Shown here: piece by piece, positions 1 through 18,770 of the stretch
Position numbering within the stretch: the stretch's first letter is position 1
Layout: each line of letters begins with the position of its first letter
Source of the DNA: Ignavibacteriaceae bacterium
GTDB taxonomy: Bacteria > Bacteroidota > Ignavibacteria > Ignavibacteriales > Ignavibacteriaceae
Direction: 5' to 3'
Length of the DNA stretch: 64,000 nt
Assembly (NCBI GenBank): GCA_013360295.1
Contig: JABWCL010000001.1
Span: 124,001-188,000 of the forward strand
The notes under the pieces: generated by a model
Database searches by the model: none
Told to the model about the DNA's origin: nothing
The model's input: the letters and a program-made list of their open reading frames with translations, nothing else
Translations under genes and position numbers: made by a program

Positions 1-3000
1 CAGTCCAGGCATACGTCTGCAGGGCAGCGTTTACTGATGCTGCTATTACATTCCAGGAAGAACCGTTATTTGTCGAATAATCTAGTGCCACATTTGTCAC
101 AGAACTGATATTAAGCCAGGTAATATTCCGAATGGTACCTGCTTGCCAGGTTTCACCGCCATTGGGTGAAGTAAGCTGAATAGAAGATATGCTAAACACA
201 GCTGCGCTGGTATCGGCAACAAAAGAATTTGAAGCATCAGCAATTCGGACCCTGACCTGACTGGAAACAGTATTCGGAACAAGCCAGGAATAGCTTTTCG
301 GTGCGGCTGGAGTGGACGCGATTACGGTACTCCAGGAAGTGCCGTTATTCGTTGTATATTCAATGCGAAGATTGGCTATCGAAGCAGAACTGCTCCAGGT
401 GATGGGAACAGTACTGTTTACAGCAAAGACTTCTCCCCCATTGGGAGAAATAAGGGCTAACGAATTGATCGAAAAAACCGCGTTACTTTCATCGGCAATA
501 TTATCTCCCGGATAGTCAGCGTCTGATATCCTGACTTTTGCCGAATTTGTAGAAACACCCGGTACAGTCCAGGCATATAATTGTGATGCCGCAGAAGTTG
601 AATTAGTGATAGTAATCCAGGTCATGCCGTTATTGGTGGTATACTCAAGTTTAACGTTCGTAACATTCCCGCTGCTCCAGGTAATGTTATTTAAACTGTC
701 AGCCTGAAGGAATTCTCCACCGTTAGGATAAGTCAGCTGAAGAGATTTTACGCTGAAAACTGCGTCACTCTGATCCTGAATAAAAGAATTTGATGCATCT
801 GTAATTCTGATAAGTGTAGAATTGCCCGGGGCGTTCGAGACAAGCCAATTATAAGTACCGAGGGCAGCGTTCACAGACGAAGCGATGTTTGTCCAGCTGG
901 TTCCATTGTTTGTGGAATACTCAAGGGTAACATTAGCAACATTTGAACTGTTAGTCCAAGTAATCGCTTTTGTTGTACCCGATAACCAGCGCTCACCACC
1001 ATTCGGTGATGTAACCGATAAATTAGCTATCTTGAATACGGCATCACTCTGATCGGAAAAGGCAGAATTATCCACATCAACAACCCTCACAAGCGCCTGA
1101 GAAGTAGGAGCATTTGGGACGGTCCAGTTATATGTACCTGAGGCAGCATTAAGGCCCGTTGCAATATTGGTCCAGTTGGTTCCACCGTTGGTAGAATATT
1201 GTAAATTCACCTGATTAATAATGGTGGATGTCCAGGTAATATTTTTCGATGCACCAATGATGAATCCTTCCCCTCCATTCGGTGAAGTAAGAGTCAGAGT
1301 GGCGATGGTAAAAGTTGCATCATTTGTATCTGAAATTGAAGCCGCGAAAGCGTCACTGATCCTGACTCGCGCATTACTTGTTGCAACATTGGGAACTGTC
1401 CAGGCATAAGTACCGGCCCCACCCGCTGTTGCACTTGTGATGGTTGTCCAGGAAGACCCGTTATTCGTAGAATACTCGAGTTTTACAAAGTTAACACTCG
1501 AACTTTTCAGCCATTGAATATTAAAGGTTGAACCGGCGAACACCTTTTCTCCGCCAACCGGAGCAGAAAGCGCAACATAGCCAACCTTGAACTGTCCCGA
1601 AGTTGAAGTAATGGTTGATGTACCGTTATCAGTGAGTCGAATTCTTCCCTGGCTGGCTGAAGCATTACTTGGAATAACCCAGGGAAAAGTTCCGGTTGTT
1701 GCATCAGCATTTGTAGTGATGGTTGACCAGTTCGTTCCATCATCTGAACTGTACTCAATAGTAAGAGAGACAAGATCACTGCTCGCTGTCCACGTTATAT
1801 TTTTAGTAGAACCTGCTCTAAGGGCTTCACCTGCAGTAGGTGCATTCAGAGTCAATCTTGAGACAGTAAACATACCGCTTGTAGAACTGATATCCATTCC
1901 CGTTGTAACATCTGAAAGGCGTATAAGAGCCTGGGTTGATACAAAAGAGGCTGGAATACTCCAGTTATAACTTCCTGAAGAGGCAGAGGTAGAATTAGTA
2001 ATTGTGGACCAGGATGTTCCATTGTTAGAAGAAAATTCAATTTTTAAGAGATTAATCCCAGAACTGGACCATGTGATACTTTTATTAGTGCCTGACTGTA
2101 TAACTTCTCCGCCAGCAGGTGATGTGAGGCTTAAAGTGCCTATTGTAAAAGCAGCGTCTGAGACGTCGAATTGTGAAAAATCAGAAAGATTTACGATCCT
2201 GATTCGCCCGTTCGTGGTGGGCGTATTAGGCACTGTATAGGAATAGGTACCCAATGAAGCTGAAACAGAGGCTTCGAGCACGGTCCAGGCAGCACCGTTA
2301 TTAGTAGTGATATCAATCCTGATATTTCCAGGAAGATTTGATGTCCAGGTAATATTTTCTGTTGCTCCAACGATAAATCCTTTGGTTGTATTCGGAGCAG
2401 CTAACTGCAGGGTATAAATATTAAAAGGATTATCACTCTCATCTTTTATCCCAACATTCGAAACGTCCGAGATCCGGATAAGGCCTTCTGTGGTACCGCT
2501 GTTGGGTACGCTCCAGGTGTAAGTACCTGTGGTAGCGTTTGTTGAAGCAACCACATTATTCCAACTTATACCATTATCAGACGAAAATTCAATTTTAACA
2601 AAGTTTATATTCGAACTTGTCCAATTAATCGCATAATTAGTCCCGGCGTTAATGTCTTCAAAACCATTAGGTTGTGTAAGACTAAGTGAGGAAATGACAA
2701 ATTGATTACCAGTAGTAACAATGGTTGGATCAAGTACGTCGCTAATTCTAATCAATCCCTGGGTTGTCGGAGAATTGGGTACAGTCCAACTATAAGATCC
2801 AGTCAGACCGTCAGTGCTGGCAACAATGTCGCTCCAGGTGGTACCATTATTCGCTGAGAACTCAATTTTTACATTGGCGATATGAGCGCTGGAGGACCAG
2901 GTGATTGAATGCGTTTTTCCGACCTGAAGTTTCTGCGCGCTGGCAGGCGAATTAATTACTATTCTCGAAATGTTAAAAACGGCATCTGATGTATCACCGA

Positions 3001-3240
3001 AGGTGGTTTCTGAAAGGTCATACATCCTTATAAGTGCCTGGGAAGTACTGACGTTAGAAGGTATTGACCAGGCATGTACCCCGAGACTCGCCGAAACTGA
3101 AGATGCAATCACTATCCAGGTTCCCCCGTTATTAGTGCTGTATTCAATTCTCGCGTCATCAAATCCGGAGCTATTCCAGGTTATATTCTTACTGGTTCCG
3201 CTCTGCCAATTCTCGCTTCCGTTGGGAGAGGTAATTGTTA
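1..3240 (-). repeat. About twelve tandem 92-residue SPNGGE-type repeats
   Basis: The repeat cores, in frame on the minus strand, lie near 3229, 2950, 2670, 2390, 2122, 1835, 1560, 1285, 1009, 727, 448 and 171, a spacing of about 277 bp. Later units keep SPNGGE well; the units near 2950 and 2390 are degenerate (SPASAQ, APNTTKG). The DNA itself has diverged, so these are old protein-level repeats rather than a fresh DNA duplication. Confidence 0.85.
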
Positions 3241-3346
3241 ATGTTTTAGAAAAAAAGGAGTTAGCCCCGACATTCCCCTTAGAGGGAAGTATTATCGAAC
3301 TAAATACAAAAACAAAAAAAAAGAGAGTAGTAAATATTCTGTTCAT
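1..3346 (-). CDS. Large secreted SPNGGE-repeat surface protein (C-terminus beyond window)
   Basis: The frame starts with ATG at 3346 and stays open to the left edge, giving at least 1115 residues; the stop lies outside the window. Residues 1 to about 22 form a signal peptide (MNRIFTTLFFFVFVFSS). After it come about twelve degenerate repeats of roughly 92 residues, each following the pattern SPNGGE, then G(T/S), ITW, LEYSTNNGTSW, Y-W-(V/I)P and RI-D. The pattern resembles Ig-like (Kre9/KNH-type or FN3-like) beta-sandwich repeats common in secreted proteins of Bacteroidota and Ignavibacteria. A T9SS sorting tail may follow but cannot be seen. The gene lies 62 bp downstream of the duplicated barrel genes and may share their transcript. 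A role as adhesin, filament or motility track is inference. Confidence 0.85.
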   Translation of the reverse strand, partial: MNRIFTTLFFFVFVFSSIILPSKGNVGANSFFSKTLTITSPNGSENWQSGTSKNITWNSSGFDDARIEYSTNNGGTWIVIASSVSASLGVHAWSIPSNVSTSQALIRMYDLSETTFGDTSDAVFNISRIVINSPASAQKLQVGKTHSITWSSSAHIANVKIEFSANNGTTWSDIVASTDGLTGSYSWTVPNSPTTQGLIRISDVLDPTIVTTGNQFVISSLSLTQPNGFEDINAGTNYAINWTSSNINFVKIEFSSDNGISWNNVVASTNATTGTYTWSVPNSGTTEGLIRISDVSNVGIKDESDNPFNIYTLQLAAPNTTKGFIVGATENITWTSNLPGNIRIDITTNNGAAWTVLEASVSASLGTYSYTVPNTPTTNGRIRIVNLSDFSQFDVSDAAFTIGTLSLTSPAGGEVIQSGTNKSITWSSSGINLLKIEFSSNNGTSWSTITNSTSASSGSYNWSIPASFVSTQALIRLSDVTTGMDISSTSGMFTVSRLTLNAPTAGEALRAGSTKNITWTASSDLVSLTIEYSSDDGTNWSTITTNADATTGTFPWVIPSNASASQGRIRLTDNGTSTITSTSGQFKVGYVALSAPVGGEKVFAGSTFNIQWLKSSSVNFVKLEYSTNNGSSWTTITSATAGGAGTYAWTVPNVATSNARVRISDAFAASISDTNDATFTIATLTLTSPNGGEGFIIGASKNITWTSTIINQVNLQYSTNGGTNWTNIATGLNAASGTYNWTVPNAPTSQALVRVVDVDNSAFSDQSDAVFKIANLSVTSPNGGERWLSGTTKAITWTNSSNVANVTLEYSTNNGTSWTNIASSVNAALGTYNWLVSNAPGNSTLIRITDASNSFIQDQSDAVFSVKSLQLTYPNGGEFLQADSLNNITWSSGNVTNVKLEYTTNNGMTWITITNSTSAASQLYAWTVPGVSTNSAKVRISDADYPGDNIADESNAVFSINSLALISPNGGEVFAVNSTVPITWSSSASIANLRIEYTTNNGTSWSTVIASTPAAPKSYSWLVPNTVSSQVRVRIADASNSFVADTSAAVFSISSIQLTSPNGGETWQAGTIRNITWLNISSVTNVALDYSTNNGSSWNVIAASVNAALQTYAWT

Positions 3347-3408: not shown

Positions 3409-4809
3409 CTAATAATTGATTCTGAAAACGGGAGAAAACACAACATAATTATCACTGCGATAAAACGGTGTACCGGTATTTCCAAATCTGTAACCGGTGT
3501 GAAACCTAAAATCTAGCCCGATGGTATTTGTCAGCATAAAATAAAAATTCACGCCGAGATATCCGTCAGCATCTGAGAAATTATGATTTAACATCGCAGC
3601 GAATTTATAGTTAAGCAAACCACCTTCACCCTCAATTCCCGCTTCAGTATTAAGGACGTGCTTGAAGCCGGCACCACCGCCGTTAATGTCAACAAGCTTC
3701 GTGATCCCCGGAATCAGAGCGTAATACTTAACATCGAAAGCGCTGTACCCCGCTCCTGCGTAAATGGTACCTGCATCTCTGATGTCAAAAATATTCGGGT
3801 ATTTTGCAAAGAAAGTAATATAATTTCGAGTTGAATAAAATTTTGTGAGATAGCTCAATCCGATATCAGAACTTTTTAACTGACTAAGAGTAAAAAATCC
3901 CTGCAGTTTAAGTTCGATATCCTTGATAGGTCGGTAAATATATCCTAATGGGCTTCCTATAACTTTAATATAAAAACCGGCACCGGTGTAAAACATCCTT
4001 CTGCCAACGTCATCAGGTTCAAACCCCAGGTCGGGTTGCCTCGCGGGTAAACCAAAACCGATTTCTCCAACATAGGAGTTATAGGCGCGGTTATTTATCA
4101 GCGAGTCAATATAAGTGACTTTTAATCCGGTAACGTAGTTTGGATAGTACCAGCCAGGTATCGGGATATGATCATTGCCCCACCTTCCTATAAGTGAAGC
4201 CAGATATTTATTCCTGCCTTTTGTCGTAAGCGACCAGAACATAAGTTCCGGTTCGAGCAGATGAAGGTATATATTAAAGTTGTATGCATACTTTGAATCG
4301 TAAAAAGTTTTTGTCAGATCATTCAGAGCATAAAACTGTTTTTTAAGTTCCTGATAAAGTTCCGGACCAACAACTTCTCTGAGGTAAACGAAATCCGTTA
4401 TCGGGTCAAAGAAGAAATCAGTCGAATCCCTCCTGCCATAACTGGACTCTTTAAAGAACCGTAACAGTTCGATTTCATCATCATAGTAGCGCTTACGTAA
4501 GTCTATAAAAACATTACCGAGATAAATATCTTTACTCTTTTCCTGAAGATCATCGATTGTGGGTTTTGCTCCGTTAACCCGGAGCGCGCTCTTAACGACA
4601 AACTTATTAAAAATTTCCCGCACAAAAACCGGGTCAGTGACAACCCAGGTTTTTTTCAGGTCATTAAATGCAGTCGTGGGATACTCAAGATTATTGTAAA
4701 GTGAATTAAGTAACCGGAGTTTGAAGGTCTGCATGGTATCTGCTGGCTGCGGCAGTATTGCGCCAAAAGAGCACGATATAAAAATAAGAATCAATAATTT
4801 CAATTTCAT
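3409..4809 (-). CDS. Outer-membrane beta-barrel protein, copy B2 of the duplicated module
   Basis: I do not recognise a named family. ATG at 4809 is preferred over ATG at 4818 because a GGAG site lies 9 nt upstream of it; this gives 466 residues. A signal peptide (MKLKLLILIFISCSFGAILP) is followed by a roughly 110-residue domain with LKKTWVVTDPVFVREIF and RKRYYDDEIE, then by long stretches of alternating aromatic and polar residues typical of a beta-barrel. It ends in RINY, an aromatic C-terminus of the type recognised by the BAM machinery. It is a paralogue of the product of 6362-7753. The gene sits only 15 nt after its A-type neighbour. A structural or channel role with the GldL/GldM-like proteins is inferred from position only. 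Confidence 0.8.
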   Translation of the reverse strand: MKLKLLILIFISCSFGAILPQPADTMQTFKLRLLNSLYNNLEYPTTAFNDLKKTWVVTDPVFVREIFNKFVVKSALRVNGAKPTIDDLQEKSKDIYLGNVFIDLRKRYYDDEIELLRFFKESSYGRRDSTDFFFDPITDFVYLREVVGPELYQELKKQFYALNDLTKTFYDSKYAYNFNIYLHLLEPELMFWSLTTKGRNKYLASLIGRWGNDHIPIPGWYYPNYVTGLKVTYIDSLINNRAYNSYVGEIGFGLPARQPDLGFEPDDVGRRMFYTGAGFYIKVIGSPLGYIYRPIKDIELKLQGFFTLSQLKSSDIGLSYLTKFYSTRNYITFFAKYPNIFDIRDAGTIYAGAGYSAFDVKYYALIPGITKLVDINGGGAGFKHVLNTEAGIEGEGGLLNYKFAAMLNHNFSDADGYLGVNFYFMLTNTIGLDFRFHTGYRFGNTGTPFYRSDNYVVFSPVFRINY

Positions 4810-4824
4810 TGGATGCATCTCCGA

Positions 4825-6342
4825 TTAAAAACCATATCTATAGCGTACCTGAACAAGACTGCTCCCCTCGCCGGTCTCCCAGGGATGTACGCTCCTGAAC
4901 AGCGGAGGTGATATATAGGTTGTCTCGAATCTGAATAGATGAGATGGAGCCAATTCGAATACCTTCATCCAGAATTCGATCCCCAGTACGTTATCGAAGA
5001 TTCTGAATTTCGAACCAAAAAACTCATTACCTTTTGGCACAAAAGTAACATAAGTCGAGATGACGGGCTGGATCTGGTTATAAACCAATTTTTGATTCAT
5101 TCCCCTATAATAATTGATTTTATAAACGTCATAATTACCAATACCGACATCCATTCTAAAGCGGACAGTCATTTGTTCGGAATTATTCCAGTAGAATGAC
5201 ATAGACATTTCCCATTGCTTCGTGGTAAAATAAGCATCCGCGCTGTCAGATTTACCAAAAGTAGTAAAAGGGTTGGAAAAATCGTTCGAACCTGTGGAGA
5301 GATAAAGATTGAAAAACGGCAATCCGTATGCCCTTGATCCGGCGATGTCAACCATTATTCCCGGTCCCACATTTAGTCTTGGTTTATCGGTAAAAAGAAA
5401 AGGAAGATAGCTGGCAAAGCCTGATGTATTCAGCCGCATACGCCCGAGCAATTTGGCATCAATTATGAAAGCATCCATAATGTTATTCACATCGCCGGAA
5501 ATACTAACAAGCGAACGGATACCTAAATTCATACTCATACTCTGCCAAGGCAAGACGTTAAGAACAGGAGTTCCAAATCCCATTTCAGCGCTTATACTGC
5601 TGAACCCGAAATCCATCGAACGATGGAAGAAACTCGCTTTTGAAAAACTAGCGTCAACCTGGTATTCGCTCGCGACAACTTCAGCCTGCTGCTGGCGGCG
5701 GCGACCTGTTTGTTTGCTAGCAGAAACCGGGTCTTTAGGGAAACGATGAATTCCGTTTACTCGGGCAAAATTAATGAAGTCTTTATTGTCCGTGCTGGTA
5801 ATGCCACCGCTTTTACTGACTTGCTCGTCAATATCTATAGTAAGAAGGCTGCCGGGTTCCTCTCCCGCTTCAAGCTGTAAAACAACTTTGTTGAAGAGAA
5901 AGTCATAATACTTCTTCTTATCAGGGTCGAAGTACATCTCTGACAAATCCTTGAATCTCAGAACGACATTCGTGTCAATCTGCGGCCCACCGGTTGTCGA
6001 TCCGAAAATTGATTCCGTCTCACTTGCGGATCTATCAACGATCTCTTTTACGTATAATAACGTTACAGAATCAAATTCGATTGTTTCCTTAAGAAAGACA
6101 ATTTGATATGTGACCGTCTCTGAAAGCCGAAATGTAAACGGTTCCCTTTCATCTGTCCTGGGAACATTAGTTAAGATACTGATATCCTCGGCTTTCAGGG
6201 TTATGGGGAAAGAATGAATATTTAGATAGCTCCGGTCAAAGATCAACTTTTTGTCAATCTTATTATAAATATTCCTTAATTCCTGAGCGCCCACTGACCC
6301 TGCAAGAAAGAAGATAGCGAAGAAGAATATAACTCGCTTCAT
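4825..6342 (-). CDS. Outer-membrane protein, copy A2 of the duplicated module
   Basis: No named family recognised. The frame can start at GTG 6345 or ATG 6342; I use the ATG, which gives 505 residues, the same length as its paralogue A1. A signal peptide (VIFFFAIFFLAGSVGAQ) is followed by an N-terminal domain of about 200 residues containing PRTDEREPF, then a Gln/Arg-rich linker (GRRRQQQ) near residue 215 and a beta-rich C-terminal half ending in RYRYGF. The linker separates an apparently periplasmic domain from a barrel-like domain. It is flanked by B1 (16 bp upstream) and B2, so all four copies are probably co-transcribed. Confidence 0.8.
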   Translation of the reverse strand: MKRVIFFFAIFFLAGSVGAQELRNIYNKIDKKLIFDRSYLNIHSFPITLKAEDISILTNVPRTDEREPFTFRLSETVTYQIVFLKETIEFDSVTLLYVKEIVDRSASETESIFGSTTGGPQIDTNVVLRFKDLSEMYFDPDKKKYYDFLFNKVVLQLEAGEEPGSLLTIDIDEQVSKSGGITSTDNKDFINFARVNGIHRFPKDPVSASKQTGRRRQQQAEVVASEYQVDASFSKASFFHRSMDFGFSSISAEMGFGTPVLNVLPWQSMSMNLGIRSLVSISGDVNNIMDAFIIDAKLLGRMRLNTSGFASYLPFLFTDKPRLNVGPGIMVDIAGSRAYGLPFFNLYLSTGSNDFSNPFTTFGKSDSADAYFTTKQWEMSMSFYWNNSEQMTVRFRMDVGIGNYDVYKINYYRGMNQKLVYNQIQPVISTYVTFVPKGNEFFGSKFRIFDNVLGIEFWMKVFELAPSHLFRFETTYISPPLFRSVHPWETGEGSSLVQVRYRYGF

Positions 6343-6361
6343 CACCGTTTAAAAGCCGACT

Positions 6362-7753
6362 TTAGTAATTGATTCTGAGTACAGGCGAGAATACGATGTT
6401 CTCGGTCATCCTGTACTGAGGGAATTTCTTATCGTCAGTTAAAGCGTTAACAATTCTCAGGTCAAAACCAAAATTGTCGCTGACCATCACTCTGGATTTG
6501 ATGCCGGCAAACAGATAGCCGTCACTGCTGAAGCCAAACAACATCGCGAAATTGTGCTGGATCAGACCGCCGGTTCTGGAAACGCCAACTTCGGTAAATA
6601 GATGATGTGTGAATTTATTCAAGAAGTCTTTATTCTTCTGTAAATCAACAAGTTTCTTTGTATTTGTCCTCGCGAGGTATTTATTAATATCCATCGTTGA
6701 AAATCCTGCTGCAACTTCCAGCATTCCAAAATCGAATAGATTGAACAGATTACGCTTCCTGCCTTCGACAACCAAATATGTTCTGTTTGACCAAATCTCA
6801 GTCGAATCTTTCAGCCCCAGTTCTTTACTGGTATATTCAGTTGCAACATATTTAGTTTCAATAGTCATTTGGAAATCTTCCCAGTCGGTATCGAAAAATC
6901 TGAGCGGGTCTCCGGTTATCTTCATATATACGCCCTGTCCGGTAACATAAAGACGCTTAGGCGCATAAGTACTCACGAAAGGATTGCCTGCAGGAAGAAC
7001 TAATCCAAGTCTAAGGTCATAAGTAAAATTCTGTGGATTACTGCTTATGTTTTGATAGTATGTTAGACTTGATCCTACTACATAATCACCAAGCTGCCAA
7101 CCCGGGAGAAAAAGATAATCATTTCCGTACTTACCGAACATAGATAAAAGGTATTTATTACGAAAATTTGAAGTAGTATTCCAATACATAACTCTCGGTT
7201 CAAGCAGATTCAGATTAAGATCAAAGAAGTAACCATTCTTGGTATCGAATTCTTCTTTCGTCAGGTTACTGAAATAATAGCTCTGGGTACGGATCTTATC
7301 ATAGATCTTTTCACCGACAATATCTCTTAAAAGGAAACCGTCTTTCACGGGGTCAAAAGCGTATTTGGGATCCTGTTTGTGGACTTCACTCTCAGGAATG
7401 AAAGCAAAATGTTCGATTTCGTCATCATAATACCTTTTTCTGATATCAATAACTATTTTCCCATCGTAGATTTCCTGCGATTTTGTCTTAACTACATCGA
7501 GCGGAACTTTCTTTCCATCAATTCTGAGCTTATTTCTCACCACGAATCGGTTGTAGACTTCGCGAATAAATGTTGGGTCATTTACGATCCATTTTTTCTT
7601 AAGATCATCGAAAGCAAGTGTGTTATATTCAAGGCTTTCATAAATTTTCTGAAGATCTGCCGCATTTGGGACATTGTTTTCTTGTGCATTAACTGGTGAG
7701 AAGTAGCACAGTGAAACTAAAAAACCGAGAAATACTATTTTTTTCATATTCAT
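6362..7753 (-). CDS. Outer-membrane beta-barrel protein, copy B1 of the duplicated module
   Basis: No named family recognised. The protein has 463 residues starting at ATG 7753 (a second ATG lies two codons inside). A signal peptide (KIVFLGFLVSLCYFSPVNAQ) precedes a globular N-terminal section with DLKKKWIVNDPTFIREVYN and RKRYYDDEIE, both closely matching copy B2, followed by a barrel-like region rich in Tyr/Phe and Gly-Asn turns, ending in RINY. The N-terminal section is the best conserved part between B1 and B2, which suggests it makes the specific contact in the system. The gene lies 26 bp downstream of A1 and 16 bp upstream of A2. I see no convincing match to GldN, PorP/SprF or PorV, although a remote relation cannot be excluded. 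Confidence 0.8.
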   Translation of the reverse strand: MNMKKIVFLGFLVSLCYFSPVNAQENNVPNAADLQKIYESLEYNTLAFDDLKKKWIVNDPTFIREVYNRFVVRNKLRIDGKKVPLDVVKTKSQEIYDGKIVIDIRKRYYDDEIEHFAFIPESEVHKQDPKYAFDPVKDGFLLRDIVGEKIYDKIRTQSYYFSNLTKEEFDTKNGYFFDLNLNLLEPRVMYWNTTSNFRNKYLLSMFGKYGNDYLFLPGWQLGDYVVGSSLTYYQNISSNPQNFTYDLRLGLVLPAGNPFVSTYAPKRLYVTGQGVYMKITGDPLRFFDTDWEDFQMTIETKYVATEYTSKELGLKDSTEIWSNRTYLVVEGRKRNLFNLFDFGMLEVAAGFSTMDINKYLARTNTKKLVDLQKNKDFLNKFTHHLFTEVGVSRTGGLIQHNFAMLFGFSSDGYLFAGIKSRVMVSDNFGFDLRIVNALTDDKKFPQYRMTENIVFSPVLRINY

Positions 7754-7779
7754 TTCAATCTCAATATTACTTATTATTA

Positions 7780-9297
7780 CTAAAATCCGTACCGATACCT
7801 GACCGTAGCAGTCGCCCCGCCTTCATTATCCCATTTCCTGGCTTTATGAAAGATCGGTGGAGTAAGTACCTGTGTCTCAATTCTGAAAGTATGCCCTCCT
7901 TCGAGTTCAAGCAGTTTGAGCCATGAAATTACCTTTGCCGAACCGTCAAATAGCTTGATCCTGGTTCCGAATAATTCTTTATCATCCGGAGCAAAATTGA
8001 AGTGGAATTGAACCATTGGATAAAAGTTGGCAAACACCTGCTTTTTAGTGGTAGGTTTTTTCGAACCTGCTGCATATTCGGCTCTCCACACATCGTAGTA
8101 ACCCGCTCCTACATCCATACGGAATCTTGAAATAAAATTATCACTGGTGTTCCAGTAGAATGACATACTCCCTTCCATGGAATTCCAGTTAAAGTAAGCC
8201 TCCTGTTTGCCTCCGGCAATGCTAAACTTGCGTGCAGGATCTGCGTATTCGGGTGCCCCAACCATTACGTAAAAATTCATAAAAGGCATACCGAAGGGAC
8301 GCGTTACATTCACGTCTATACCACCTCCAAAACCTGTGTTAAGTTTTGGACCTGAAAGGCCTAAAAAGGGAATGTTCTTGGCAATTGACCAAAGATCAAA
8401 CCCAAGTTTTCCAAGTATCCTTGCGTCGATGACAATTGACTGGTCAATATCTTCTTTCTTTTCAGACAGGCTTACTAGCGTACGGAAGCCCATTGTCATT
8501 GACTGTCCCTGGAAAGGCAACACATTGAGGACTTTATCTTCAAATCCTAATTCGATGCCTGCGCCTCCCATCGCGAAATTCATTACTTCGTGGGAAAAAC
8601 TTGAAGTGGAGAAACCGGCATCAATTTTATAAGATGATGTGACCACCGGCTCAACTTTCTTACGTCCACCGCCTTTTTTTTCAATCTTCGGCCTCGGATA
8701 CCAGTGGAAGCTATTTGCCCTCATATAATTAAGATAATCAGTGTTATCTCTGGAGGCAATACCGAGACTGGTTTTAATTTCTGTATCCGGGGTAATACGA
8801 AGTAATGTCGGAGGATCAGAGTCAGGGTTATCCTTAAGATACTTATCAATTAGTTTATAAAACCTGAAATATATTTGAGGATGATTCAGCCTGAGGTTGT
8901 ACATATCCGCAAAGTTCACAACTAATTGTGTGTCCTTGCTGGCTCCTGCAGTCTCGCCGAAGATACTTTCTCCGCCGGCAGCGAGATCAGTTATCTGTGA
9001 GACGTATAGAACCATTGGAGAATCAATCTGAATACCTTCCCTGACAAAAACAATATTATATACTATATTATCTTTTGCCTGCATCTGAAAGGGTTCCTTC
9101 TCATCAGTTCTGGGTATGGAGAGGAATTCCTCTGCAATTTTACCTCCTTCGGGGTAACTGATGTAATGGAGATTGAGATAGCGTTTATCTCTCCTGAGTT
9201 TTAGATCGATCTTTTCAACGACCTCACTTGCATCTTGCGGAAATACTGGTAACATTATACCGAACAACGCAATAAACAAAACAATGTTCTTAATCAT
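7780..9297 (-). CDS. Outer-membrane protein, copy A1 of the duplicated module
   Basis: No named family recognised. ATG at 9297 is preferred: AGAAGG lies just upstream of it and would be inside the coding region if TTG 9309 were used. The 505-residue product has a signal peptide (MIKNIVLFIALFGIMLPVFPQ), an N-terminal domain with YLNLHYIS and PRTDEKEPF, a basic/glycine linker (KKGGGRKK) near residue 215 and a beta-rich C-terminal half ending in RYRYGF. The linker occupies the same place as the GRRRQQQ linker of A2. It is the first outer-membrane gene after the GldL/GldM-like genes and their periplasmic partner, 84 bp downstream of the latter. Confidence 0.8.
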   Translation of the reverse strand: MIKNIVLFIALFGIMLPVFPQDASEVVEKIDLKLRRDKRYLNLHYISYPEGGKIAEEFLSIPRTDEKEPFQMQAKDNIVYNIVFVREGIQIDSPMVLYVSQITDLAAGGESIFGETAGASKDTQLVVNFADMYNLRLNHPQIYFRFYKLIDKYLKDNPDSDPPTLLRITPDTEIKTSLGIASRDNTDYLNYMRANSFHWYPRPKIEKKGGGRKKVEPVVTSSYKIDAGFSTSSFSHEVMNFAMGGAGIELGFEDKVLNVLPFQGQSMTMGFRTLVSLSEKKEDIDQSIVIDARILGKLGFDLWSIAKNIPFLGLSGPKLNTGFGGGIDVNVTRPFGMPFMNFYVMVGAPEYADPARKFSIAGGKQEAYFNWNSMEGSMSFYWNTSDNFISRFRMDVGAGYYDVWRAEYAAGSKKPTTKKQVFANFYPMVQFHFNFAPDDKELFGTRIKLFDGSAKVISWLKLLELEGGHTFRIETQVLTPPIFHKARKWDNEGGATATVRYRYGF

Positions 9298-9381
9298 TTT
9301 CCTTCTCAAAATAGTAGGGTAATTATATTCAAATTTTAATATACAACATCAGCACAATAGCGAATGTGATTTCTGTCCGTT

Positions 9382-10464
9382 TTACTTAATTACAGTAGCG
9401 TAAAATGTCTCTTTGACCTGTTCCCCAAACTGAGTCCTGAACTGAATAGTCAGTTTGATCGCCTGCTCATCACCGACCTGCATCCCGTCAACGAAATCCT
9501 GATTAATATTAATGTCAATATACCGAAAAACGCCACTTTTCCGGTTTGTCCCGCCGCTAGCGAAAGTTTCTGGCTCTGCAGTCACTCTCAAACCTGAAAC
9601 GTCGGGAGTAACAGTGACATATGATCCTGCAGGAGTGAGGCTCATATAAACAAATAAAAATTGCTTGGAAAAAGCGTTGTCAACACTGATATACCAGGGA
9701 GCATCACCGTCTTTGGGTTCCTTAGTGTTCCATCCGTGAAACTTTTGCATCTGTGGTTTCTCAACAGAGAAGTCCCAGGATGAACGCTTGATTTCCTTCG
9801 AAACGGCATCTTTATACTCAAATTCTTTCCCCTCGTAAAAGCCTTTTACCGTTATCTTCTTACCGACATTATTAATATCTTTTAGAATTTTTTCCAATTT
9901 TACAATCGGTCCTTTTCCGTTCTCTATTGCTGCTCCCCCCGCATCTGTTATCAGGTAAGAATATTCATTAGGGTCACTGTATTCAAGTGTGGCAAAACTG
10001 AATGCTTCATTCTCATTGAAAAAGTAACTCGGACGGAGATTAATTTCGGCTGCCATAGTGGGATTGTCCACAATTACCATCGTATACCTGTCCGCACGAA
10101 TGGCTCCGCCAACTTCTCCCTGAGCAGATAATGTAACTTTAATATAAAAAGTGCCCGGAGATTCAATCAGATCGTGCAAAACTAACGAGACCGTGATTCC
10201 ACGCCCACCGGTAACTCTTTTGGCAAATTCTTCCTTTTTTGGGATTTGGGTATAGTTAGCAACATCACGAACCTTACTCATGTTCGCATCAAGTATCTCG
10301 GCAGTAAAATCAAATCTGGTCAGGTTAGCCAATACAATAGCCCCAACTGACGGAACATTAAATTCCTGCAGCGCAGCAACCTTAATGGTATCACGTACAT
10401 CAACCTGGGCGATAGAATTGGCAACTAAGAATAGAAATAGTATCAGGAAAAATTTTTTTGTCAT
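9382..10464 (-). CDS. Secreted beta-domain protein, possible periplasmic half of a GldM-like protein
   Basis: The 360-residue product starts at ATG 10464 with a signal peptide (KFFLILFLFLVANSIAQ) and no further membrane segment. The rest looks like several Ig-like beta domains (for example FYIKVTLSAQGEVGGAIRA, RYTMVIVDNP, KFHGWNTKEPKDG and a C-terminal FRTQFGEQVKETFYATVIK). GldM of Flavobacterium has one N-terminal membrane helix and a long periplasmic part made of stacked domains. Here the preceding gene supplies a membrane helix and one beta domain and this gene supplies more periplasmic domains, so the two together might correspond to a split GldM. That is inference from order and architecture; sequence similarity is not obvious by eye. 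A strong hairpin separates the two genes. Confidence 0.7.
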   Translation of the reverse strand: MTKKFFLILFLFLVANSIAQVDVRDTIKVAALQEFNVPSVGAIVLANLTRFDFTAEILDANMSKVRDVANYTQIPKKEEFAKRVTGGRGITVSLVLHDLIESPGTFYIKVTLSAQGEVGGAIRADRYTMVIVDNPTMAAEINLRPSYFFNENEAFSFATLEYSDPNEYSYLITDAGGAAIENGKGPIVKLEKILKDINNVGKKITVKGFYEGKEFEYKDAVSKEIKRSSWDFSVEKPQMQKFHGWNTKEPKDGDAPWYISVDNAFSKQFLFVYMSLTPAGSYVTVTPDVSGLRVTAEPETFASGGTNRKSGVFRYIDININQDFVDGMQVGDEQAIKLTIQFRTQFGEQVKETFYATVIK

Positions 10465-10496
10465 TTCAATTAACCTTTATATTTAAGAAACATAGA

Positions 10497-10520
10497 AGGG
10501 CGGGACTAAAGCCCCGCCCT
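10497..10520 (-). terminator. GC-rich hairpin between the GldM-like gene and the next gene
   Basis: An 8-bp perfect stem (AGGGCGGG / CCCGCCCT) with an 8-nt loop lies 8 nt after the stop codon of 10529-11149. On the minus strand the stem is followed by TCTATGTTTCTT, a weak U-tract. It could be a partial terminator, a processing site or an mRNA 3' stabiliser that sets lower expression of the downstream genes. Confidence 0.6.
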
Positions 10521-10528
10521 GAAAGAAA

Positions 10529-11149
10529 CTATAATATTTCAACGCCGCGGCGCTGCACACCTGAACCGGCTTTAGCACTGACCTTGAAGGTCTCATCATT
10601 GCTTACAGCAACTTTCTGCTCACCGATCATTGTTTTGAGATCATCAAGAAGATAATCCGGTAAATAACCAGGCAATTTACGTTCTACTGTGCATTTAGCA
10701 ACAAAATTAAATTCACCCGATGATGTAAGTTTAAGTTCCAACTTCCCATTACCGTTGATATTGGTGATTTTGTAATTTGCGCTTTTACCTGGGTTTTTAC
10801 AACTGATCCCACCGGCCGGCCACCCGGGGGGTGCCTGACTTCCGCGTGCCACATTAACTGTGAATTCTACATCGGCTTTCTCTTCATCAGAAACCAAACC
10901 GACAGTTGTTAAGGTGATCTGAGCGGAACCTGCATCTTTATTTGTAATATCAAAATCAAGAGCTTTTGGAGTTGCCGTCAGAAGTACCGGTTGTTTATAT
11001 GAATTTGCAATACTCGCGAGCATTTTCTCGCGGATGGCGTGTTCCTTTTCTTCAAGTTCATCACGCTCTGTAATTACGATCATTAGCTCTGTAATGAGTA
11101 CAACGTATAAAACGAAGTACAGCATTTTTGAGCCGCTGCCTTTAGCCAT
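10529..11149 (-). CDS. GldM-like single-pass inner-membrane protein with periplasmic beta domain
   Basis: The 206-residue product starts at ATG 11149 with AGGAG 8 nt upstream. Residues 9-27 form one membrane helix (MLYFVLYVVLITELMIVIT) with a buried glutamate, E21, followed by a charged helix (ERDELEEKEHAIREKML) and a beta-rich periplasmic domain. It directly follows the GldL-like gene (29 bp), the order seen for gldL-gldM. In known GldLM motors five GldL and two GldM make a proton-driven complex. The periplasmic part is short and beta-rich, unlike the helical first domain of GldM, so it is a distant relative or an analogue. It could also be a different two-subunit ion-driven motor. Confidence 0.65.
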   Translation of the reverse strand: MAKGSGSKMLYFVLYVVLITELMIVITERDELEEKEHAIREKMLASIANSYKQPVLLTATPKALDFDITNKDAGSAQITLTTVGLVSDEEKADVEFTVNVARGSQAPPGWPAGGISCKNPGKSANYKITNINGNGKLELKLTSSGEFNFVAKCTVERKLPGYLPDYLLDDLKTMIGEQKVAVSNDETFKVSAKAGSGVQRRGVEIL

Positions 11150-11178
11150 AATGCGTTCTCCTATCTAAAATTTAATGA

Positions 11179-11721
11179 TTATCCTTTGAAGACTTGCTTC
11201 ATTTCGGACATAGATTTGAAGAAGTCAGCTTTAACAGCTGCGAGTTTCTGGCTTACTTTTGCAATATTTTCAGCATAGTTGTTGAGAGCTTTCATTTCTT
11301 CATCAGCAATAACCTTAAATTCAGCAATCTGCTGTTTAATTTTTGCAATCTCTGCTTCAGAAGCTTTGGTGTCAGGCGCTGCTGCTGCTGGAGCAGGTTC
11401 GTGCCCGCCTGCTTCTTCAGGGGTGAAGAATGTAACTATCGCGAGAACCATAAGTAACGCGAACTCGAGGAAGAGTGAGGTCATTACCCACATCGGAGAA
11501 ACTTTGTGAGTTGCCTCATCAAAAAGAAATCTGGGAACGATAGGAATATCATAAGCTACGGTACCAAGTCCTCTTAATCCAACGATGATGATCAAGAGCG
11601 CTGCACCCATATACACCAAGCCCTGAACGTTATTGGCGTAATTAGGAATAAAATTGTATACCATGTAACGCCCAAATGCGGTTTTGGGGCCGGTAGTTGT
11701 GTTCTGTTTTTGTGTTGCCAC
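11179..11721 (-). CDS. gldL: GldL-like inner-membrane motor protein
   Basis: The start is GTG at 11721, supported by AAGGAGAT about 6 nt upstream; the product has 180 residues. Two membrane helices occur at about 35-53 and 77-98, followed by a cytoplasmic tail that includes an Ala/Pro-rich linker and a predicted coiled coil (about 120-175). Helix 1 ends with Arg50 (VGLRGLG) and helix 2 carries Glu86 (TSLFLEFALL). GldL/PorL proteins have this same topology and a conserved glutamate in helix 2 thought to lie on the proton path. The tail resembles the GldL cytoplasmic region in length. Symbol and role are inferred from topology, the buried glutamate and the following GldM-like gene. First gene of the minus-strand block that runs to the window edge. 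Confidence 0.7.
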   Translation of the reverse strand: MATQKQNTTTGPKTAFGRYMVYNFIPNYANNVQGLVYMGAALLIIIVGLRGLGTVAYDIPIVPRFLFDEATHKVSPMWVMTSLFLEFALLMVLAIVTFFTPEEAGGHEPAPAAAAPDTKASEAEIAKIKQQIAEFKVIADEEMKALNNYAENIAKVSQKLAAVKADFFKSMSEMKQVFKG

Positions 11722-11972: not shown

Positions 11973-13544
11973 TCAGACCTGGGCTTTTGAAAACCAGGAG
12001 AAAAATTCCTGCAGCGCTTCTCTCCGCTCAGGCGCCACGTAATTAAAGTTGATTCCTCTAGGTGTAATTTCCCAGAACTCCTCATCCTTCGTATTAAATA
12101 TCATATCCTGAATCTTCGATATACGTGAGTATGGCTCGATCTTCATATCATCGTATATTATTCTTGCAAGTTCAATATCACCTTTAAGCAGATAGAAACC
12201 GGCTAATTTTGCCTGTGCAATCCTCACTCCTATAAGGGACATTTCCTTCACAGACTGCTGTTCTTCCGCAGCCTCTTCAAGCGGTTCATCAACAGTGAGA
12301 AACATCTGGAGCAGGTTCCTGATATTTGGCACTTTCTTTTCATAAGCCAGTTCATTAATCATACAGAGGTCGTGCGCGGCGGTTTCAATGATGAACAGTA
12401 CCTGATTTTTATTGGCTTCCTGCCCATAGTACTTGAAATAAAACGAAATATTCTCCACCTCGTAGGGATCTTCATCCAGCAATTCTTCCGCAAGAATCCT
12501 GTAGTGTTCCAGAGTATTAAAAGCTGAACGCGGGTCCCTTTCACGGATTGAGATTCTCAGATACGAATTGAAATACTGGAATACACAGTACAGAGCGCCT
12601 TTATCATTGGCTTTCACTGCTCCCGAAGCAATCAGTTCCGAATTCAACAATACTCCGGACGCCACATCCCTCAGGGTCACCCGCGAGTATGCGAACAGCA
12701 TTTCGAACAACCGGAAGACTTTCCTTTCCAGGAAGATCTTTTTATTCTCAATAACTGTCATAACAAATCTGGAGTAGCTTGAGAAATCCGGGTCAAAGTA
12801 CTCGAGTCCGGACATCTTAAACCAATTTGCCGGAAGATCCTTCTTATAACCAAGATACTTTACCGTTATTTCTCTAAGTATCGCTAGACACTGAAGCGTT
12901 GTGGCACGGTCTCCCTGAATAACTGAGTTCAGGGCTATATCACCGATAAAATTGATGGACTCACTAATTTCCTCTTTTACCGAATAACTGTATTTCCTTT
13001 TCCCTTCGCTAAGGTTCTTCAGGTTCTTAAGTATTTTATCTTTCACATAAGAAAGGAAATTATTCGGACGAAGGAAGTTAAAAACATAATTGAAGTGCGG
13101 GATAACTATAAGGAGACTTATGACAATAAGGACAAGGCAAATGGTAATACTAAAGTAGGGCACTGCCTCATTAGAAATTGTATTGCTGACCAGGACAGTA
13201 TTGATTGCAGTAATAACGTATATGGAAATTACGACAAAGTTTACTCTGTCCCCAATAAATAGTTCCATAACTTTTGAGGAGTATTTATTCGCTGCTAATT
13301 GCACGATAATCGCGAGCACAGTAATTTCAATCCCAAGCACTGACGCAACTAGTTCACCGAGCCCCCCAAGCGTATTCGTCATATTCCCGACATCCTCATT
13401 ATAAAAAACAGAAAAAAAGTTTAAGCCGCTTTTTATGAGGATGAGGTCAATGATCCGGTTGACACCAAAAATAACAAAACTTATTATCATTAAAATCAGG
13501 AATGGCCACACCCATTCCGATTTCTTCTTAAAAATTTCGGTCAA
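11973..13544 (-). CDS. DUF2254-like membrane protein
   Basis: Four membrane segments lie in the first 180 residues, followed by a long soluble C-terminal region that looks helical. The stretch IIVQLAANKYSSKVMELF followed by DRVNFVVISIYV matches the pattern of DUF2254 proteins (QLAANQYSPR...DR), a family of predicted membrane proteins without known function. Only TTG codons are available at the start; TTG 13544 (523 residues) has AAGGA at a better distance than TTG 13553. The C-terminal part is longer than I would expect for the family and may be a helical repeat. It is not clearly co-transcribed with its neighbours (gaps of 251 bp downstream and 75 bp upstream). Confidence 0.7.
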   Translation of the reverse strand: MTEIFKKKSEWVWPFLILMIISFVIFGVNRIIDLILIKSGLNFFSVFYNEDVGNMTNTLGGLGELVASVLGIEITVLAIIVQLAANKYSSKVMELFIGDRVNFVVISIYVITAINTVLVSNTISNEAVPYFSITICLVLIVISLLIVIPHFNYVFNFLRPNNFLSYVKDKILKNLKNLSEGKRKYSYSVKEEISESINFIGDIALNSVIQGDRATTLQCLAILREITVKYLGYKKDLPANWFKMSGLEYFDPDFSSYSRFVMTVIENKKIFLERKVFRLFEMLFAYSRVTLRDVASGVLLNSELIASGAVKANDKGALYCVFQYFNSYLRISIRERDPRSAFNTLEHYRILAEELLDEDPYEVENISFYFKYYGQEANKNQVLFIIETAAHDLCMINELAYEKKVPNIRNLLQMFLTVDEPLEEAAEEQQSVKEMSLIGVRIAQAKLAGFYLLKGDIELARIIYDDMKIEPYSRISKIQDMIFNTKDEEFWEITPRGINFNYVAPERREALQEFFSWFSKAQV

Positions 13545-13619
13545 AATCAACAATCCTTAGGTATATACTGCTTCCAAATATACTAAGAAATTACATAAAT
13601 AGTCAGTATAATTGAAAAA

Positions 13620-14615: not shown

Positions 14616-15884
14616 TTATATTTTAATTTCCCAATAGATCTTGGTTCTGAGTTCCTTTATCCATTCAGCATAAAGTTTCTGCTTTTTGAATTCATCGGAT
14701 AATTTTTTAAGATCGGTATAATCCATCTCAAGGTTAGGCTTGTGCTGAGGAATTCGCTTTTCGAGAAATACTATGTGATAACCGTATGTGGTCGAGGTAA
14801 CATTTACTCTTTTAGGGAAACTGATTTCCCCTTCTTGAAGTTTGGAGGAGATATCTAATAGATTTTTATCAAGCTGTTCCATATAAAAAGTACCCAGAAC
14901 GCCACCAAAAGGAGCGGTTTCCTTGTCATCGCTGTAGAGCTTTGCCATATCATAAAAACTGCGGCCTTCTCTCATTATAGTGTCTCTGAGATCAGTAAGG
15001 AATTCTATCGTCTGCAGGTCAGTTTGTTCATCAGCTTTAATCTTGATAAGAATTTGACGGGTCCTGACTGATTCCCCTCTCTTTTCAAGCAGCTGAATGA
15101 TATGAAAACCTGCGGGTGATTCGACAATATCAGAAATCTGGTTGATGTCCAGTGCGAACGCGGCAGCTTCATACTCAGGGAAGAAGAAACCCTTCTTAAC
15201 AAATCCCAGGTCTCCCCCATCCTTTGCGCTTTCAGTATGATCAGAATAACTTTTCGCCAGTTCTGCAAAATCTGCTCCGGCTTTTATTGAATCCAAAAGA
15301 TTACGCGCAAAAGCTTTATACTTCTCCTTTAAATTGCCGGCAGCCTGCGGATTTCTGAAGATGTGACTGATCTTAACCTTCTCAGGAATTACGCCGAGAC
15401 TATCCTTGTAGGTTTCAAAAAACGATTCCACCTCTCTTCTTGAAGATTCAACAAAACCAAACTTTTTTTCCTGGAGTTTCTGAACCATAATATCTTTACG
15501 GATATTCTCTCTCAGTTCCCTCTTAATCCTGTCGATACTCATTCCGTAGGTTTGTTCAAGCCTCTCTTTTGAGCCATATTGCTGAATAAACATCTCGATC
15601 TGATAGTCGATCTGCCTGGTTACTTCTTCTTCCGTGGCAAAGACCGAATCGATTAATGCCTGCGCGTAAACAAGTTTTTCATCTATAAGGTTGTTCAAAA
15701 CCTGCTGACGGGCTTCAGGATTCTGAGGGTCGATCCTTCTTTGGGCAGCTAAAAGATTTAACTGAAAGTCAAGTTCAGTACCAAGAATTATCTCGTTATC
15801 AACAACCGCTACAATCCGGTCAATCACCTGTTGCGGATAAACGGAAGTGGCAATGATCAATAAACCTAAAAATAAAAATCTCAT
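14616..15884 (-). CDS. surA: SurA-like periplasmic peptidyl-prolyl isomerase
   Basis: The 422-residue product has a signal peptide (RFLFLGLLIIATSVYPQ), a SurA-type N-terminal chaperone region (IDRIVAVVDNEIILGTELDFQL, then LIDEKLVYAQA) and two parvulin domains, at about 170-270 (VKISHIFRNPQ ... GFHIIQLLEKR) and about 275-385 (VRTRQILIKIK ... YGYHIVFLEKR). Length and domain order match SurA, which escorts outer-membrane proteins across the periplasm. The start codon overlaps the stop of the upstream lipoprotein gene (ATGA). Three folding factors in a row fit a cell with many exported barrel and repeat proteins. Confidence 0.88.
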   Translation of the reverse strand: MRFLFLGLLIIATSVYPQQVIDRIVAVVDNEIILGTELDFQLNLLAAQRRIDPQNPEARQQVLNNLIDEKLVYAQALIDSVFATEEEVTRQIDYQIEMFIQQYGSKERLEQTYGMSIDRIKRELRENIRKDIMVQKLQEKKFGFVESSRREVESFFETYKDSLGVIPEKVKISHIFRNPQAAGNLKEKYKAFARNLLDSIKAGADFAELAKSYSDHTESAKDGGDLGFVKKGFFFPEYEAAAFALDINQISDIVESPAGFHIIQLLEKRGESVRTRQILIKIKADEQTDLQTIEFLTDLRDTIMREGRSFYDMAKLYSDDKETAPFGGVLGTFYMEQLDKNLLDISSKLQEGEISFPKRVNVTSTTYGYHIVFLEKRIPQHKPNLEMDYTDLKKLSDEFKKQKLYAEWIKELRTKIYWEIKI

Positions 15885-16684
15885 CTTATCTCAATTTTAC
15901 TTTCTGATGTTAGTTTCTCGAAGAGTTCTTTCTCTTTAATAATTTTTCTTGAGGCTAAAAGGTCGCTCATTACGATATCCCGTATATTCTCAAGAGGAGG
16001 CAGGGTACCTTGTCTAAAAATGTTCATCATCTCAAAAACAATAAATCGCCTCTCACTGTTTTTAATTACGAGGCTCACCTCGCCGACATTCATATTCCGT
16101 AATGCACTGAGCATATCTTTGCCCGGAATTTCATAGAATTTCAAATAACGGGATTGCTCAACAATAACGCCGGGTACCCTCTCCAACACTTTCTTTATGT
16201 GATCCCACTTTTTATTGATCCATTCATAACGCCACTTTATGGCTGATTCCTCATCCGTGAAAGTAACCGAATTAATCAGATAAGCATCATCTTTGAGGAG
16301 ATAGAATTCAGGATGATGATTATAAAAATAACTTAAATCATCTTCTATAATCTCAGTCTCAGTCTGAATGATAGCTTCGTCGAGAAGGAGTTGATAGGCA
16401 ATTTTCTTTTCAATATTCAAGAACTTTTGCCTGTTGGAATCAATATCAAGCAGCCCCTTGCGTTCAGCTTCCTGCCAGAACAATTCCCGCTTTATCCATC
16501 CGTTAATAACTTCAACTGAATCCGAAGGAGAGTGCTTACTCGAATCATACATCTGGTAGAACTCACGATGGTAAAGATAGGAATCATTGACCCTGGCAAT
16601 AAATTCTGTTTTCTGTTCCTCCCGTTTGCACGAGGGGAACAGAAACAGAATTAATAATAATACCGCGATGCGGTTACTTTTCAC
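15881..16684 (-). CDS. SurA-N-like lipoprotein chaperone without clear isomerase domain
   Basis: I place the start at GTG 16684, overlapping the end of the upstream gene by 11 nt, because this gives a clean lipoprotein signal (SNRIAVLLLILFLFPSC) with a lipobox cysteine; upstream starts in this frame would run through the previous gene. The 267-residue product has a SurA/PpiC-like N-terminal segment (ARVNDSYLYHREFYQMY) and a helical middle. The C-terminal half (IPGKDMLSALRNMNVGEVSLVIKNSERRFIVFEM) looks like a degenerate parvulin fold without the usual GG-DLG and GYHII motifs. It is probably a folding factor anchored to a membrane leaflet, working with its two neighbours. Confidence 0.75.
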   Translation of the reverse strand: MKSNRIAVLLLILFLFPSCKREEQKTEFIARVNDSYLYHREFYQMYDSSKHSPSDSVEVINGWIKRELFWQEAERKGLLDIDSNRQKFLNIEKKIAYQLLLDEAIIQTETEIIEDDLSYFYNHHPEFYLLKDDAYLINSVTFTDEESAIKWRYEWINKKWDHIKKVLERVPGVIVEQSRYLKFYEIPGKDMLSALRNMNVGEVSLVIKNSERRFIVFEMMNIFRQGTLPPLENIRDIVMSDLLASRKIIKEKELFEKLTSESKIEIR

Positions 16685-18662: not shown

Positions 18663-18770
18663 CAATTTTCTCCGATTGTTAGTAATATTATTAAAAGTAG
18701 GGTATTTGAAATATTCAAACTTAAATGTTACGGACTCAGAGTGAGAAAATCAATATAAAATGACTGGTAT

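Follow-up and report, generated by a model that had tools for sequence, protein, structure and literature searches.

We describe a nine-gene operon in a 64,000-nucleotide stretch of the genome of an uncultured member of the Ignavibacteriaceae (GenBank assembly GCA_013360295.1, contig JABWCL010000001.1, positions 124,001 to 188,000; hereafter the window), which may encode a motor of the GldL superfamily that, without GldK or GldN, drives a giant surface protein and outer-membrane carriers of its own. We regard this reading as about evenly balanced between right and wrong. The operon is tightly packed on the minus strand, with intergenic gaps of 6–72 bases, and is transcribed in the order L, M, P, B1, A1, B2, A2, the gene for a giant repeat protein and a lipoprotein-like open reading frame (ORF) (Table 1). 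An earlier note on this DNA had described at least eight co-directional genes here, including a periplasmic beta-domain protein, two pairs of outer-membrane proteins and a giant repeat protein; every ORF that it named was recovered on the minus strand, and the ninth gene is added here. The absence of gldK and gldN that it had noted was borne out, as Pfam and NCBIfam scans of the window proteins recognised no gldK- or gldN-like ORF in the block. None of L, M, P, A or B scored over a Pfam or NCBIfam cut-off, and no description of the block, or of GldL or GldM in Ignavibacteria, was found among the open-licence papers covered.

Hydropathy gives L two hydrophobic peaks, at residues 34–53 and 79–97, corresponding to two helices, and Glu86 in the second is invariant in the aligned L proteins (28 of 28 and 16 of 16). 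The essential glutamate in Flavobacterium is GldL E49, in helix 2, according to one report (PMC8986121). L had no NCBIfam match at E≤1, the curated cut-off of the GldL model TIGR03513 not being reached. A scan of 118 genomes of the phylum placed canonical GldL in 31 (28 over the cut-off) and did not find it in the genome studied here. Nor was a further GldL detected in 41 genomes, comprising this genome and 40 relatives, in which a mixed profile (A6) matched nothing but the L of the block below E 2e-5; elsewhere in these genomes A6 gave weaker matches, confined to the region after the helices. A sequence profile search of the PDB with L, M and P produced nothing usable, with the PorL chain 7sat_C matched at E 0.85 over the coil part only.

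The link to GldL is provided by an intermediate family, Lk, made up of 10 sequences that come from other families in the class; nine of them adjoin a ∼500-residue one-helix protein (Mk). Profile comparisons over the helix pair joined Lk to L (98.0%, E 2.3e-13) and to GldL (88.7%, E 2.6e-6), where the E-values are single-comparison values and the likeness to L is partly due to selection, the Lk members having been picked with the L profile. Controls reached at most 2.7% (20 shuffles each) and 1.7% (reversed). From these profiles we take L to be a member of the GldL superfamily, linked through Lk alone, and not GldL itself. The L domain was also seen in proteins of 440–455 residues from other families of the class (L122:4609-12051 and L127:2189-9244, and by size and position L120 and L135). 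These ORFs adjoin genes for products of ∼1,900 residues, two of which were scanned and proved to be C25 peptidases bearing a FlgD-type tail; given such neighbours, the L domain may serve several systems linked to type IX secretion (T9SS).

M has a single hydrophobic peak (residues 9–27), corresponding to one N-terminal helix, and Glu21 lies inside this predicted helix in 28 of 28 proteins and in 15 of 16 of a wider set, while eight canonical GldM proteins carry no acidic residue mid-helix. M did not reach the curated cut-off of the NCBIfam GldM model TIGR03517. At 206 residues, against 507–590 in 19 canonical GldM proteins (L066-L084), it has no long periplasmic arm in one chain; the GldM arm comprises four domains (PMC8986121). 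A sub-threshold match to SpaA_4 (21.7 bits, cut-off 27.3) we read as a probable generic beta domain. Longer M proteins of another family (f5) matched the window M at 99.7% and Mk at 95.1%, yet the two matches cover different parts of f5, N-terminal and C-terminal respectively, and therefore do not chain. Against GldM, the f5 proteins scored 1.4% and Mk 9.2%; a marginal hit to the GldM profile, at E 5.6e-4, came from one member of the 10 in Mk (L196).

P, the beta-domain protein of the earlier note, was modelled as three tandem immunoglobulin (Ig)-like domains (mean predicted local distance difference test score, pLDDT, 91.4). Tandem Ig and Ig-like proteins of a generic kind make up its listed fold matches, at low whole-chain template-modelling scores; GldM is not among the 50 listed, which excludes nothing. 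Homology of P with GldM, of which it might be a split-off periplasmic arm, found no support in sequence profile comparison (0.7% and 4.2%). P was also considered as the missing part of M, and no similarity was seen, the longer f5 and Mk proteins included.

Conservation of the block was assessed by scanning the collection with A, which gave 36 named loci (titled Ignavibacteriales, Ignavibacteria, Ignavibacteriaceae, Melioribacteraceae, Chlorobiota and similar); this set overlaps the 41 genomes, with nine named L loci in common. The order L-M-P-B-A holds in all 28 of the named loci that contain L, and the arrangement of the genes is therefore not due to chance. At one of these, L170, the contig end truncates A, and a 92-residue ORF stands between P and B. 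A DUF2254 gene lies directly upstream of L in 19 of the 28, and three of the other nine begin at the contig start. The eight named loci without L comprise L163 and seven that start at or near a contig end.

Among the 41 genomes, a sequence search with L matched 17 at E 0.01 (two being weak matches broken by stops) and the profile of L was present in 15. With up to 40 candidates scored per genome, A was present in 14 genomes, each of them one of the 15 that have L, and was not found in any of the 26 without L. Gene order and co-occurrence, both of which the earlier note had proposed to examine across relatives, thus came out as conserved. The single L genome without A (G013) has in place of B-A a different 302-residue protein that is barrel-like by eye (L033). 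Fifteen neighbourhoods from 14 of the L genomes show L-M-P followed by outer-membrane genes, and the gene set of G015 (L034) is very divergent; this divergent version of the block (L034:8602-17140) adjoins a PorE-like OmpA/PD40 protein whose score, 172.6 bits, falls short of the 600 set as the PorE cut-off. In a phylum-wide sample of 296 genomes, a scan of up to nine candidates per genome placed L in 40, and one of up to five placed B in 26, 14 of the latter being weak barrel-end matches; all belong to the same class as the window genome.

The model of A1 (mean pLDDT 83.4) contains a barrel from about residue 172 with 14 strands of at least three residues, and barrel proteins recur throughout its listed fold matches. 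By Z score its closest neighbours are FadL-type channels, from 13.9 (CymD, root mean square deviation 3.9, 236 aligned) to 12.7, followed by CymA and OmpG at 12.4 to 11.6 and by chain F of the type 9 translocon entry 6h3i, which we take to be PorV, at 10.8; Foldseek E-values instead place general porins first. The comparison concerns the barrel, the N-terminal domain being barely covered. A is thus modelled as an outer-membrane beta-barrel with an extra N-terminal domain, by Z score most like FadL-type channels. B is a probable outer-membrane protein from its sequence, and the profiles of A and B show a weak likeness (33.0% over 250 columns). Of the two outer-membrane pairs proposed in the earlier note, A has gained a predicted barrel fold and B is still assigned from sequence.

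That both families were unrecognised has held. No PorV, PorP/SprF or FadL match was obtained with 49 A proteins at E 0.05 (NCBIfam and Pfam), where stray matches occurred in one or two members. B, like A, gave no GldK, GldN or PorV family match, with one stray Pfam match among 49 B proteins and an NCBIfam scan covering the two window copies. A profile hint that A might be GldN (36.5%) fell to 16.7% with a deeper alignment and was dropped. Neither A nor B has a conserved cysteine, the most cysteine-rich alignment column holding 4% Cys, and the disulfide mechanism that joins SprF to GldK is therefore inapplicable. In a maximum-likelihood tree built from 54 A proteins, copies of the first pair and those of the second form two clades (support 99/99 and 99/96), so that the duplication is old and both pairs have been kept. 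L169 falls outside both clades, and L164, L167 and L168, labelled first pair, are placed in the second; these three loci begin at or near a contig end, with at most one pair visible.

The giant repeat protein, joined across the adjoining stretch of the same contig (locus L020), is 4,833 residues long with no internal stop. An I/L-T/Q/R-W motif recurs about every 93 residues, and Tandem Repeats Finder reported 0 rows, the repeats being too diverged at the DNA level. The 4,350 residues encoded in L020 match Kre9_KNH and Reelin_subrepeat-B, and the C terminus matches Por_Secre_tail (32.5 bits, cut-off 27), a T9SS sorting domain whose model we take to be of type A. Of the 17 named loci that have two pairs and DNA beyond them, 10 carry a giant gene after A2 (11 of 18 if the window is counted); the figures are none of four for single-pair L loci and three of six for L-less loci, again with DNA beyond. 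The lipoprotein family occurs directly after A2 at two of the seven giant-less two-pair loci (L154:14410-15255 and L160:14515-15360). To our eye its tail and the C-terminal region of the giant look cohesin- and dockerin-like, presumably.

Taken together, these parts could form a machine in which L, probably as a pentamer, would be the ring and M, probably as a dimer, the axle, making up a proton-driven inner-membrane motor of the 5:2 type with L-Glu86 and M-Glu21 as the likely proton-handling or coupling residues. M being short, P would extend the drive through the periplasm and hand force to the N-terminal domains of B and A. These in turn would hold, export or move the T9SS-tailed giant encoded beside the second pair, much as SprB is served by SprF, with force passing by contact through the periplasmic domains of B and A in place of a GldK/GldN track. 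We infer proton use, stoichiometry, the force path and the moving of the giant; the work done may be export or movement. It is very unlikely, in our view, that the products are instead a passive envelope-spanning scaffold in which L and M form no motor: the link from L to GldL is indirect, which would favour this explanation, and yet both L and M carry invariant glutamates in predicted helices.

Several observations weigh against a GldL-type motor with its own carriers. Direct profile comparison of L with GldL gave 89.3% with the 16-row L alignment, partly via the coil, and a weak 11.9% with the deeper, 28-row alignment; the helix pair alone gave 1.4%, and the reversed control of the 28-row alignment reached 38.1%, above 30 shuffled controls (at most 2.9%). 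The direct comparison is thus an unsafe basis for the assignment, and of the earlier note's description of L as GldL-like, what stands is the two helices, the invariant Glu86 and the route through Lk. Its description of M as GldM-like is not supported as it stood, since profile comparison detected no similarity (1.4% and 3.1%), the protein is so short and its own helix bears an invariant glutamate. Glu21 itself is not kept in the longer f5 proteins, which have N, S or G by eye. No GldK/GldN-like track was found in the block. At L163:3523-6410, the sole L-less locus with a visible upstream flank, a B-A pair stands without adjoining L-M-P and with unrelated genes upstream; seven of the 17 two-pair loci have no giant beside the pairs. 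Inter-locus distances of L and M correlate weakly (Spearman 0.22, 28 loci), joint evolution of the parts over these loci being modest overall (0.11 to 0.61). The suggestion of a reduced motor is doubtful: the block looks to be a distinct branch equipped with components of its own, not a stripped GldKLMN locus.

The genomic setting bears on what such a motor would power. SprA was matched in 40 of the 41 genomes (39 over the cut-off) and the PorU sortase in all 41 (39 over the cut-off), the window genome included in both cases, so the export machinery is present; a published account also indicates that T9SS may be present in Ignavibacteriota (PMC11285876). GldN and GldM were over the cut-off in none of the 41, this genome included, with two weak matches each. 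The block is not the general T9SS motor of these bacteria, as 26 of the 41 genomes lack L though SprA and PorU are near-universal; present in about a third, it is an extra that only some of them add to a translocon which nearly all have. The same distribution tells against a dedicated energiser of T9SS export, in which the motor would feed the SprA translocon for the giant or a class of cargo, with the barrels as PorV/SprF-like shuttles and no surface movement, as do the two-pair loci that lack an adjoining giant. We consider this explanation unlikely. In its favour, the giant bears a T9SS tail, the modelled barrel of A matches FadL-type channels and, further down, a T9SS translocon chain, GldN and GldM are missing over cut-off from genomes that have SprA and PorU, and L-domain ORFs adjoin C25 peptidase genes in the wider class (two scanned).

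A Ton- or Tol-like energiser, opening or cycling the barrels for uptake or tethering the outer membrane with the giant as a passenger of the locus, appears distinctly improbable. It would suit the hydrophobic-compound channels that are the best fold neighbours of A, the optional presence of the giant and the acidic residue in the M helix, which is reminiscent of ExbD, TolR and MotB; however, the window proteins gave no ExbB/TolQ, ExbD/TolR or OmpA match at E≤1 (TonB boxes were not searched for), and two kept B-A pairs beside a surface protein suggest a job at the surface. Returning to a GldL-superfamily motor with its own carriers, which would be a distant relative of the bacterial gliding motor, the operon suggests that such bacteria have another, independent means of pushing proteins across the outer membrane or along it. 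A bolder and rather doubtful extension is that it represents an envelope motor of a class apart, whose ring (L-Glu86) and axle (M-Glu21) would each have a proton-active glutamate and in which Ig-domain shafts drive paired carriers and giant surface fibres directly, with no GldK/GldN track or disulfide tether. Gliding-like movement would then have evolved beside and independently of the T9SS motor, and several systems across the class would have taken up the L domain, among them one that adjoins PorU-like peptidases.

Proton-driven motors known to extend to the outer membrane are of few types, and on the question of how their force crosses the periplasm the operon offers a compact, self-contained case in which the force path is apparently encoded gene by gene as ring, axle, shaft, barrels and surface protein. 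The near-universal SprA and PorU, in genomes with no GldN or GldM over the cut-off, also raise the question of what powers T9SS there.

Among the remaining features (Table 1), the strong hairpin between M and P is a possible attenuator that, judged from its sequence, could keep expression of L and M above that of the rest of the operon. Three genes upstream (window 14616-18665) look like SurA/PpiC periplasmic chaperones by eye, that is, outer-membrane assembly factors close to outer-membrane protein genes.

Table 1. Features of the operon and its surroundings (window coordinates unless a locus is named).
Feature	Coordinates	Strand	Description
L	11179..11721	-	180 aa; GldL-like protein of the inner membrane with two helices, a coiled tail at the C terminus, Arg50 (conserved) and Glu86 (invariant)
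M	10529..11149	-	206 aa; single N-terminal helix with Glu21, followed by E28-R29-D30 and by a small domain
Terminator-like hairpin between M and P	10497..10520	-	10 pairs, 8 GC; consensus scan
P	9382..10464	-	360 aa; exported, three tandem Ig-like domains (predicted model)
B1	7780..9309	-	509 aa; first pair; probable outer-membrane protein with N-terminal domain (sequence and weak profile likeness to A)
A1	6362..7753	-	463 aa; first pair; N-terminal alpha/beta domain and outer-membrane beta-barrel, ∼residues 172-463, FadL-type-like (model)
B2	4825..6345	-	506 aa; second-pair B
A2	3409..4818	-	469 aa; second-pair A, old paralogue of A1
Repeat protein, N-terminal part	1..3346	-	4,833 aa overall; T9SS sorting tail; continues beyond window, locus L020 to base 6845
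DUF2254 membrane protein	11973..13553	-	neighbour upstream of L; system membership uncertain
Lipoprotein-like ORF, ninth gene	L020:5984-6844		286 aa; directly after giant gene

Of the known systems, the GldLM/PorLM motor of T9SS and gliding shares with the block a two-helix partner with an invariant helix-2 glutamate, encoded beside a one-helix partner, and the same link to outer-membrane partners and a giant T9SS-tailed protein; the periplasmic part of GldM, which we take to be of Ig type, may be likened to P. The block differs in having no gldK or gldN, in that L and M have no NCBIfam match, and in an M that is far shorter, not demonstrably homologous and carries a glutamate in its helix as well. 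Its Ig part is a separate exported protein and the operon has outer-membrane proteins of its own. At the GldKLMN locus, gldK and gldN adjoin gldL and gldM, whereas the neighbours of L and M here are DUF2254, P, B and A. PorV and FadL-type barrels are resembled by the A barrel, which by Z score best matches FadL-type channels, but A has no family match and bears an extra N-terminal domain, and OmpG and CymA are just 1.5 to 2 Z lower.

The genes sprB and sprF are linked, and here too an outer-membrane protein is encoded beside a giant T9SS-tailed repeat protein. SprF is the adhesin carrier for SprB and its link to GldK is a disulfide, as described in PMC12635249. A and B, in contrast, have no conserved cysteine and no Cys-Xaa-Cys tail for such a bond with GldK, and both bear N-terminal domains; the sorting tail of the giant matches Por_Secre_tail. 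In the known 5:2 motors the one-helix partner carries an acidic residue, and M has one too. Pfam and NCBIfam scans of the window proteins gave no match to MotA, TolQ or ExbB, nor to MotB, ExbD or TolR, but the operon has in common with MotAB, ExbBD and TolQR, as treated in a review (PMC9389320), a two-component inner-membrane pair.

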